Assembly (NCBI RefSeq): GCF_000196655.1
Contig: NC_014254.1
Location: forward strand, 62,001-126,000
Direction: 5' to 3'
Source: Methanohalobium evestigatum Z-7303
GTDB taxonomy: Archaea > Halobacteriota > Methanosarcinia > Methanosarcinales > Methanosarcinaceae
Length of the DNA: 64,000 bases
This document shows positions 25,068-56,998 of the stretch, piece by piece (the stretch's first letter is position 1; each line of letters opens with the position of its first letter). A program made the position numbers and the translations under genes. The notes below the pieces were generated by a model, which saw only the letters and a program-made list of their open reading frames with translations, did not search any database and was not told where the DNA came from.

Positions 25068-25170
25068 TTCAAAGTTTATAGTTTATATGTTTTAAATAAC
25101 AATAAGTTAAAATAGTTTATTAAATAGAAAAAATTAATTAGAATGAAATTTTATTTTAGCGCAGAAAAAA

Positions 25171-25229
25171 GACAAAGGAAATGATGAGCCTCGGAGAGAG
25201 GGGATAAATGCGTGTGTATTTCCTTTGTC
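25171..25229 (+). ncRNA. Conserved hairpin RNA motif, copy 1
   Basis: A 59-nt element. The terminal 12-bp stem is perfect (GACAAAGGAAAT/ATTTCCTTTGTC). An inner CCTC-GGAGA-GAGG stem precedes the invariant stretch GGGATAAATGCGTG. Two other copies (55362-55417 and 55716-55773) share the stem core CAAAGGA/TCCTTTG, the inner stem and the GATA(AA)TGCGTG stretch. The outer base pairs differ in a compensatory way (GAC/GTC, AGC/GCT, GGC/GCC). That is the pattern of a conserved RNA, not of a simple DNA repeat. The RNA family is not one I recognise. Confidence 0.6.
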
Positions 25230-25351: not shown

Positions 25352-26548
25352 TTACCACAAAACTCTATCACTTACCAGATATTCATAAAAGGCGCTTCCT
25401 GTTTCTCTATCACCTTTATATTCAATCAATGCACCATCTGGTTGATGGGACATGAAATCGACAAATCCCACTGGTTTTCCAAAAGGTGATACGGGGTCAT
25501 AATCAAACTCTGCAACCTGTGAAGCAGTTATAGTTACGTTTAAACGTGAATCAGAAGTTGAAAACGTGACTGTTTCAGGTCTTGTTATATTATTAGATCT
25601 TGTGTTATCAGGATATCCTGTATCAATCAGGTTTGTTTCGTTGATTTTTATTTCATTCCCTGAATATTCTTCAAGGACTTTACCTGTATGTTTATCCAAC
25701 AACGTCAGATGTTTGTATGAATAGTTATCGTAACCATCATCTATCCCCCGTACCGCATATGCAATAGTCTGGTAGTTTTTAGTGGTAACTTCAGACCAGC
25801 TCCACCCATGCATATTAGTTGTCCATGATAACTCACCATAATTATGATTAATATTGTTACTGGGTATCATGTGGTCCATATATCCGTTAGCCTGAGTGAC
25901 TCTGTAATCTACACCATCTATGGTTATTTTACCATGAAGGCGCCCGTATGAACGTTCATAGGTAGTGAAATTAAGTGAATTAACAGATTCATCAACGGTT
26001 TTATCAACATTTGTCTGGAAATAAAGGTCCATGTCTACTCTATCGGTCTCATAATCAAGATGATAGCCGCTGAGGTGGTTTCCAGTTAAGCTTTTAGAAC
26101 CATCCGGATAATTATAATTTACGTATGGTGTACCGAATGCTATGTAATTAGTTACATTTTCCCTTGAAACATTGGTATCTATGAAATTAAAATCCGCTTC
26201 AGTTTCACCGTCAAAATACAGACCATTAAATGAGAGCATATAGGATTGTGGTTTTTCAGCACCAAGATTAGTTTGCAGGGTTTCATTGATTTCCTGGTGT
26301 GCGAGCACGACAAAGAAACTAAAATCTTTCTTTTCGCCATTTTGTCCTACAAGTTTGGTGTCTCCATTAAGGTACCACCATTCTGCCATCATATCAGCAT
26401 CAAAATCATCTTCAAAATTTCCACCTTCTGTAAAATCCAAGTTTGGGTTATTCTTCCATCCATTGTTCTCAAATGGTTGTGCTGAGATTGTACCTGTAGC
26501 TATAATCAAACAAATTATAGCCAGAGCTAAGTAGTATATGCTTTTCAA
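25352..26548 (-). CDS. Secreted AttH/CrtC-like (lipocalin-fold) protein
   Basis: 398 residues with an N-terminal signal peptide (LALAIICLIIATGTISAQ). The mature part has the AttH/CrtC hallmarks: EWWYLNGDTKL near the start, a GYMDHMIPSNN segment in the place of the usual DHQWG region, and GWSWSEV. These proteins form a double lipocalin-like barrel; CrtC hydrates carotenoids, but most archaeal members are uncharacterised. No carotenoid genes are nearby, so no substrate is proposed. A GTATATATAAAA box lies about 40-50 nt upstream. The word CTGTAATCTATTATA occurs both upstream (26602) and downstream (24904) of the gene. Confidence 0.7.
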   Translation of the reverse strand: MKSIYYLALAIICLIIATGTISAQPFENNGWKNNPNLDFTEGGNFEDDFDADMMAEWWYLNGDTKLVGQNGEKKDFSFFVVLAHQEINETLQTNLGAEKPQSYMLSFNGLYFDGETEADFNFIDTNVSRENVTNYIAFGTPYVNYNYPDGSKSLTGNHLSGYHLDYETDRVDMDLYFQTNVDKTVDESVNSLNFTTYERSYGRLHGKITIDGVDYRVTQANGYMDHMIPSNNINHNYGELSWTTNMHGWSWSEVTTKNYQTIAYAVRGIDDGYDNYSYKHLTLLDKHTGKVLEEYSGNEIKINETNLIDTGYPDNTRSNNITRPETVTFSTSDSRLNVTITASQVAEFDYDPVSPFGKPVGFVDFMSHQPDGALIEYKGDRETGSAFYEYLVSDRVLW

Positions 26549-54806: not shown

Positions 54807-54813
54807 ACCTTCT
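54776..54813 (+). terminator. Terminator overlapping the transporter stop codon
   Basis: AGAAGGTTTAAAA (54776-54788) pairs perfectly with TTTTAAACCTTCT (54801-54813), followed by TTTTACTTTATTT. Confidence 0.7.
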
Positions 54814-54886
54814 TTTTACTTTATTTATGTCGATAACTCAAGGTTTTTTGTTTATATTTATCCGCGATAAACACATCTATCCAACC

Positions 54887-55066
54887 TTATGCAAAACTGA
54901 TATTAGCTGTTAATTGTTTAAATGTTTCAGAAACCAGTTGTTTTATATGATCGGTATCGATTATGAATAATTCAGATATACCCTCTGATACTTTTCCATA
55001 TGAACTCGATGACAGATTCACCGTTATAGTGTATAAAACCCGAAAGTATTCATCGTAATAGTACAT
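54887..55066 (-). CDS. Small protein of unknown function
   Basis: 59 residues from ATG: MYYYDEYFRVLYTITVNLSS, SYGKVSEGISELFIIDTDHI, KQLVSETFKQLTANISFA. The amphipathic pattern and lack of stops in this AT-rich DNA suggest coding. TTATAAATA lies about 20 nt upstream and there is no Shine-Dalgarno, so the mRNA could be leaderless. No family recognised. Confidence 0.45.
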   Translation of the reverse strand: MYYYDEYFRVLYTITVNLSSSSYGKVSEGISELFIIDTDHIKQLVSETFKQLTANISFA

Positions 55067-55361
55067 AAGAAGCTACTATTTATAATAATAGATTTGTTGA
55101 TTCTCTATTATCTCTCAAACAAAAAACCATACAAAAAATACAATCACAAATTTACGTTAAAATTAATTGTTAACATAAATCGTTTTAAAATATATTATAT
55201 AATATAGTATTAACAGTTAATGTGTAATAATTACAACAGGATGGACATCTTTATGAAAATGAAGGTATTCTTCCTTCTAAATCATAGAAAATTTTTATTT
55301 TTAAAACCAAAAAATTAATTGAATATGATGTTCATAGTAGTTTTATCAAGGAAAAGAAAAG

Positions 55362-55417
55362 TAGCAAAGGAATAAAAGAGTCTCAGAGAGGGGATATGCG
55401 TGCATTTTCCTTTGCTA
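55362..55417 (+). ncRNA. Conserved hairpin RNA motif, copy 2
   Basis: 56 nt: outer stem TAGCAAAGGAA/TTCCTTTGCTA, inner CTC-AGA-GAG stem, then GGGGATATGCGTG. Same architecture as copies at 25171 and 55716, with compensatory changes in the outer pairs. Confidence 0.6.
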
Positions 55418-55715: not shown

Positions 55716-55773
55716 AGGCAAAGGATATGCACGCATTTATCTCCTCTTAATGAGGTTTTTTGTTCCTTTGCCT
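55716..55773 (-). ncRNA. Conserved hairpin RNA motif, copy 3
   Basis: On the minus strand: outer stem AGGCAAAGGA/TCCTTTGCCT, inner CCTC-ATTAA-GAGG stem, then AGATAAATGCGTGCAT. It faces copy 2 across about 300 bp, and the IS630 element is inserted just beyond its 5' side. Confidence 0.6.
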
Positions 55774-55786
55774 TTTTAGTTACATA

Positions 55787-56906
55787 CTATAGTCTTTAAC
55801 TCAATGAATTATACTTCTGATTTGTACATCGAATTTTTTCATCCAAGCTTTAGCAAATGACAGTGAATTTCCGATCTTCATGAACACTGTTTTTATGATT
55901 GACCTCATATGCTGTTTTGATTGAACAAACCTTACAGATATTTCTCTTTTAATAGATTTCCATATGAACTCAACGGGGTTTAAATCAGGCGAATACGGAG
56001 GCAGGAACACCAGTATAATACCCAGTTGTTTCGCTTTCATGGTCGTTTTCAGTGCATGATGTGCTCTGGCATTATCCATAATCAACACGATAGGTCTACC
56101 ATGATTGATTCTTGATATTTCCTCGAGGAATTCACAGACATCATCAGATTTTGATGAATCTTTGAATTCGATCAGGTTGTTACCGTTTATGGAATAAAAT
56201 GCAAAAGCATTTGCTTTTATGTAATCCGTGTTCTTGTAAATCACGGGTTTATCAAACGACCAGAGTCTCTGTGTATTGGCTCTGGTCTGTGGAGACGATT
56301 CATCCATGAACCCTATTACATAGGGTTCATCGGTCTCAGTGTTTAAGAGAGTAAGTATGTCTTCGAGGTTTTTTTAAAATCTCATCAGCATTTTCAGGTT
56401 TTCTGTAGTCGTAAGTATATGGTTTGGAATGTTTCATGCCAAACTGTATCATTATGATTCTTATCTGTTTGAGAGAATATTCAACCCCGTACTTTTGTAT
56501 AACGAGCTGCCTGACTTCATTAGTAGTCCACAGGCTCCTCTCTTTAAGTATATCCTTGAGTTCATCAAACTGTTGTTGTGTGAGTTTGTGTTCTCTGCCC
56601 TTGCTTACCATAGGAACTAGTGCCTCATAACCACCTTTATTCCATCTATCCTGCCAGTAATACCCGGTCATTTTAGTGATACCAACTTTGTCAGCAGCTT
56701 CGCTGACAGAGTCTCCAAGATACCTGAATTTGCAGAAATATAGCCGTCTCAACATCCTGGCATTAGTCTCGGTTTTTATTAGAGTGTTGAGCTGGTCAAG
56801 TGTCACATGATGCTCAATATCTATCTGGTCTTTTCTTCGTTGTTTCATAAGAAGATATATGCTGTTTGAGTATAAAGAGCTACGTATCAAACTATAATTG
56901 ATTTAT
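55787..56906 (-). mobile_element. IS630-family insertion sequence
   Basis: About 1.1 kb carrying one transposase gene split by a single-base frame change. The ends are placed at TA dinucleotides (TA is the usual IS630 target duplication): ACTATAGTCTTTAA at the left and, inverted, ATTATAGTTTGATA at the right. These are short imperfect inverted repeats, so the boundaries are approximate. The element is inserted beside copy 3 of the conserved RNA motif. Confidence 0.65.
55801..56890 (-). CDS. IS630 transposase, two frames joined at a run of seven A
   Basis: The upstream frame (56336-56890) encodes the helix-turn-helix region (SVSEAADKVGITKMTGYYW). The downstream frame encodes the DDE domain: VIGFMDESSPQTRAN (first Asp), VLIMDNARAHHALK (second Asp) and YSPDLNPVEFIWKSIKRE (Glu). 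The frames overlap, and the junction lies at TTTTAAAAAAACC (56366-56378): removing one A (or a +1/-2 shift there) fuses them into about 363 residues without loss. Transcriptional or ribosomal slippage on the A run is possible, as in other IS families; otherwise it is an inactivating one-base insertion. Confidence 0.8.
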
Positions 56907-56998
56907 ACACCTGATTAAGTTTTTTGTTCTACTCTAAAATGTAACTACTGTAACGGTATATTTATCAAACTTATATCTATATATTTTAGTAGGGTATA

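Follow-up and report, generated by a model that had tools for sequence, protein, structure and literature searches.

What is a hairpin that occurs three times within a single stretch of archaeal DNA? The stretch analyzed here (the window, 64,000 nucleotides) spans positions 62001-126000 of C2, a 163,915 bp contig that we take to be plasmid pMETEV01 of Methanohalobium evestigatum Z-7303; the genome comprises this contig and a 2,242,317 bp chromosome, C1. A preliminary description of the window reported three structured copies and suggested that they represent a functional RNA family without a named match. Our analysis points, with better than even confidence, to a genus-restricted family of trans-acting small RNAs of about 60-70 nt, in which a fixed stem carries an antisense loop.

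Hairpin copies on the plasmid-like contig and the chromosome

The three copies, termed r1, r2, and r3 (Table 1), are present as described. A covariance model built from them and used to search C2 returns scores of 81.9, 71.2, and 59.4 bits for r1, r2, and r3, respectively, and the corresponding hairpins have fold z-scores of -4.2, -2.2, and -3.7. The next-best match on C2 scores 11.6 bits when the reverse strands of the copies themselves are set aside, and no fourth copy was found on this contig. The ends reported previously for copies 2 and 3 lie one base further out on each side, and these extra bases also pair. Read 5' to 3' with T for U, the predicted RNA sequences are GACAAAGGAAATACACACGCATTTATCCCCTCTCTCCGAGGCTCATCATTTCCTTTGTC followed by TTTTTT for r1, AGCAAAGGAAAATGCACGCATATCCCCTCTCTGAGACTCTTTTATTCCTTTGCT followed by ACTTTTCTTTT for r2, and GGCAAAGGATATGCACGCATTTATCTCCTCTTAATGAGGTTTTTTGTTCCTTTGCC followed by TTTTT for r3.

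Table 1. Positions in the window of the hairpin copies on C2 and of the flanking promoter-like and T-rich elements
Feature	Position	Strand	Remarks
r1, putative small-RNA gene copy 1	25171..25229	-	12-bp closing stem and inner CCUC/GAGG hairpin
r2, putative small-RNA gene copy 2	55363..55416	-	
r3, putative small-RNA gene copy 3	55717..55772	+	divergent from r2
TATA box of r1, TATATAA	25251..25257	-	starts at -28
T-tract TTTTTT directly after r1	25165..25170	-	
TATA box of r2, TATAA	55440..55444	-	starts at -28
T-rich tract TTTTCTTTT after r2	55352..55360	-	
TATA box of r3, TATAAA	55689..55694	+	starts at -28
T-tract TTTTT after r3	55773..55777	+	abuts IS630-type element

Several other elements lie nearby. 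The IS630-type element beside r3 (window 55777-56947) is bounded by 17-nt terminal inverted repeats (55777-55793 and 56931-56947), has its transposase split into two ORFs, and has inserted into a TA immediately following the r3 T-tract. Next to r2, an IS remnant of about 200 bp (window 54813-55010) shares 78% identity with the terminal part of chromosomal IS630-like elements (L210, L321). The 398-amino-acid protein encoded at window positions 25352-26548 has an apparent signal peptide and by eye resembles hydroxyneurosporene synthase (CrtC); it has no Pfam or NCBIfam match.

A relaxed pattern consisting of the stem and GAGNCTC identifies one chromosomal relative, r5 (C1:387506-387546), and also its ortholog r4 (G001:C38:7719-7760) in the one additional genome of this genus. 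Their predicted RNAs read GGCAAAGGAATATAACTTTCCCTGAGACTCATCTTATCCCTTTGCC followed by CTGTATTTTT for r4 and GGCAAAGGAACATCACTCCACCCTGAGACTCATTTACCCTTTGCC followed by CAGTATTTTTT for r5, again 5' to 3' with T for U. Both reside between a DUF1699 gene and the gene for aIF1A (Pfam assignments), in intergenic DNA that can be aligned across the two genomes. They retain the stem and lack GATAAATGCGTG, the stretch previously taken for a conserved RNA loop; no copy with that loop occurs on C1, and the stretch proves to be the complement of the loop in the RNA that we propose below.

In an alignment of r1-r5, 96% of cells are paired. Double changes affect two of 14 pairs, namely the outer two, which alternate between G-C and A-U, and 15 of 500 shuffled alignments score as high. 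The compensatory changes reported earlier are therefore genuine but slight, with two covarying pairs in a sample of five sequences from four independent loci.

The homology among r1-r3 is limited to the hairpin of approximately 55-59 nt and ends at the stem, and no homology between copies was found in their flanks. A miniature transposon, for which identical flanks and a lack of covariation had been proposed as the telling signs, is not what these copies resemble: they are diverged, carry neither near-identical ends nor target duplications, have unrelated flanks, and covary in their outer pairs. Instead of an RNA, one might still envision a tiny mobile hairpin or a single-strand recombination site, given that homology stops at the stem, that the copies are scattered in both orientations, and that IS remnants surround two of them. 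However, the copies are few in number, have diverged strongly, and share no duplicated target, and neither the fixed spacing of promoter and T-tract nor the synteny of the chromosomal copy in two species fits this idea, which we regard as very unlikely.

As far as the searches run could detect, the small-RNA family that we favor instead appears limited to the genus. With a model that includes the promoter and T-tract, a search of 199 relatives recovers only the r1-r5 loci at E <= 5.5e-12, and the next match has an E value of 0.09. The many covarying hits that would have supported the original proposal were not obtained, since members of the family were detected in the two genomes of the genus only and no convincing match was found in the 197 others. 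Rfam 15, searched at both gathering and loose thresholds, gives just chance matches to C/D-box RNAs, tracrRNAs, and others that fall far below the cutoffs. Pattern searches of IMG/VR and inspection of the syntenic region upstream of aIF1A in other genera revealed no hairpin of the r1-r5 type, and a plasmid collection yielded nothing relevant. Some leads were discarded. A 12-mer loop pattern matches among the 199 relatives at sites that have no hairpin, a full-stem pattern applied across genome contigs is too loose and has chance stems among the matches listed, and weak matches in other genera (queries R1 and R3) are chance-level alignments.

Putative promoters and T-tracts on the reverse strand

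On the strand opposite to that of the preliminary description, TATAA starts 26-28 nt upstream of the first stem base in all five copies. The same motif occurs in the same small window at 2.8% of AT-matched background positions of C2, versus four of four independent loci, a comparison that is not a formal test, as the motif and window were picked after looking at the copies. Downstream, the longest T-run within the first 15 nt measures 4-6 on this strand versus 2 on the other. Because the TATA boxes and T-tracts are found there, we assign the RNA of each of the five copies to the reverse strand. The original proposal of a functional RNA family lacking an Rfam match is supported, whereas its strand is reversed; r4, r5, and the signals on the opposite strand had not been part of it.

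In Methanolobus psychrophilus, about 19-22 nt separate promoter elements from the transcription start site (PMC5378194), and with similar spacing the RNA start would sit at the base of the stem. Judged from sequence, each copy has a promoter of its own, as is characteristic of an independent intergenic sRNA gene. Archaeal promoters of this kind would drive transcription of r1-r5, and the conserved stem of 8-12 bp (GGCAAAGG...CCUUUGCC) followed by a U-tract would most probably yield a stable short RNA whose loop is presented as an antisense seed.

Transcription of the other strand could instead produce a decoy that mimics ribosome-binding sites. That strand reads GAGGNGATAAATGCG, similar to a ribosome-binding site followed by AUG, and r4 and r5 carry TTTATA at -20 on it. 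Nonetheless, we dropped this TTTATA-like promoter (-20/-21), as it would place the start inside the stem and is not consistent among the copies, those on the plasmid having no consistent TATA box there; a decoy is the reading to which we give least credence.

Stable hairpins with T-tracts are also expected of transcription terminators that end upstream genes, and two copies do follow genes: a stop codon on the strand of r1 precedes it by about 120 nt, and the DUF1699 gene lies about 260 nt before r5. However, neither r2 nor r3 is closely preceded by a gene on its own strand, and termination leaves the fixed TATA box, the conservation of the loop, and the homology between copies unexplained. 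We therefore consider terminators very improbable, and independent small-RNA genes the better account of these signals.

Complementarity of the chromosomal RNAs to the secY start

The loops of r4 and r5 have diverged except for an invariant 13-nt block, CCCUGAGACUCAU. This block is exactly complementary to the region of the secY start codon, with Watson-Crick runs of 14 nt for r4 and 15 nt for r5, such that both RNAs match a translation start located elsewhere in the genome. The complement, ATGAGTCTCAGGG, occurs exactly once in each genome besides the RNA complement itself, in both cases at the start of secY, a gene of 490 codons whose product is, by Pfam and NCBIfam, SecY, the channel for protein export. 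Including G-U pairs, the predicted duplex extends over 19 bp for r4; for r5 it covers 16. In the predicted fold, the seed is mostly unpaired.

Among 5704 start candidates, secY is the top gene for both r4 (-33.2 kcal/mol, z -7.8) and r5 (-29.5 kcal/mol, z -5.6); for r5, the one better score belongs to a start internal to that secY region. These candidates were drawn from about 415 kb of the chromosome (about 19%) and the plasmid, and secY was included on purpose. Within this partial sample, shuffled loops reach the observed run in 26 of 2000 cases for r4 (p 0.013) and in 5 of 2000 for r5 (p 0.0025). Because secY was deliberately sampled and about 19% of the chromosome was covered, the genome-wide odds are weaker, and the corresponding p values are several-fold larger. 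Acting in the opposite direction, many of the 5704 candidates are spurious internal starts. The block, however, ends on the true AUG in sense orientation in both species, and its invariance there adds support to the predicted pairing beyond the shuffle counts.

The secY mRNA is thus a likely target of the chromosomal RNA, as far as complementarity can indicate. The loop would cover the start codon region of the message, and the resulting duplex would most probably block ribosome loading and lower translation.

The kind of system proposed here, a lineage-specific archaeal antisense sRNA, is already known. Methanosarcina mazei sRNA162 is an intergenic RNA found only in close relatives that masks a ribosome-binding site by pairing; its 191-nt primary transcript folds into three stem-loops and uses a single-stranded linker to pair with the MM2441 and MM2442 mRNAs (PMC3510493). 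The r1-r5 RNAs share with this sRNA of a related methanogen their intergenic location, their confinement to close relatives, and the predicted masking of a ribosome-binding site. By description, they differ in having a length of about 65 nt, one closing stem, a seed in the loop, and another predicted target. Haloferax volcanii sRNA132 is likewise an intergenic regulatory archaeal sRNA, but it is haloarchaeal and targets a phosphate-transporter operon (PMC6560208); its relation to r1-r5 was compared via Rfam only. In the literature searched, we found nothing that links an archaeal sRNA to secY mRNA and nothing relevant on plasmid pMETEV01. What stands out is the scaffold common to chromosome and plasmid with different loops, together with the candidate Sec target. 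Predicted target duplexes that include the start codon are known for few archaeal sRNAs, and a constant stem carrying exchangeable antisense loops, shared by chromosome and plasmid-like contig, would represent a simple, testable case of sRNA evolution.

Loop segment and candidate targets of the plasmid copies

Weaker complementarity to the secY start is retained by r1 and r2 (-28 and -26 kcal/mol), with modest results in shuffle tests, in which 4 of 300 and 6 of 300 shuffled loops, respectively, do as well. No secY complementarity was found for r3. The three plasmid copies have in common the segment CACGCAU(UU)AUCYCCUC. Its complement, GAGGRGAUAAAUGCGUG, has the appearance of a ribosome-binding site followed by AUG. 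No gene fully matches this complement. The best-ranked starts are those of iscB (AAATGCGTGTA), a gene carried by ISC elements resident in this genome, and of two exported beta-propeller genes (GAGGGGTTGAATGCGT). In a joint ranking, iscB comes first but barely exceeds the next candidates, and we therefore claim no target for the segment, leaving the choice between iscB and the beta-propeller genes unsettled.

These results bear on whether the loops of the family act on some other mRNA or on a protein rather than on secY. Even within the partial sample, about 1% of shuffled loops show a 14-nt run of complementarity to one start candidate or another, r3 has no secY match, and the conserved r1-r3 segment lacks a clear target. 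Conversely, the block that matches secY stays unchanged where the rest of the loop has diverged, and it ends on the AUG of a conserved gene in both genomes. We judge a different target to be a minority prospect, albeit one to be taken seriously, and continue to prefer secY for the chromosomal RNA.

The plasmid copies r1-r3 are probably diverged paralogs in which the added loop segment resembles an antisense of another ribosome-binding site and AUG. More speculatively, and in our view rather doubtfully, the plasmid may carry diverged copies of a host sRNA that controls secY, with the added segment directed at a further mRNA, possibly that of iscB or a beta-propeller gene, such that the plasmid tunes host export or mobile elements. 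If true, this arrangement would be a case of plasmid control over host protein export. In IS200 and IS10, translation of a mobile-element gene is blocked at initiation by a short structured antisense RNA (art200 and RNA-OUT, respectively) that is cis-encoded opposite the transposase gene. These RNAs would offer the nearest analogy if iscB were the target of the plasmid copies, although r1-r3 would act in trans.

The two exported beta-propeller proteins are TolB-like paralogs encoded near G000:C1 ~1491686 and ~1509241 (L311, L312), and the starts of their genes are near-complements of the r1 loop. The 2.4-Mb genome contains five near-full iscB genes with RRXRR and HNH domains (G000:C1:722274, 774839, 1131400, 1287150, and 1477222), two of which carry one in-frame stop each. 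Fragments of iscB are also present, including one at C2:1744-2100. The iscB copies that were inspected have a similar upstream region, of a kind that could encode an omega RNA.
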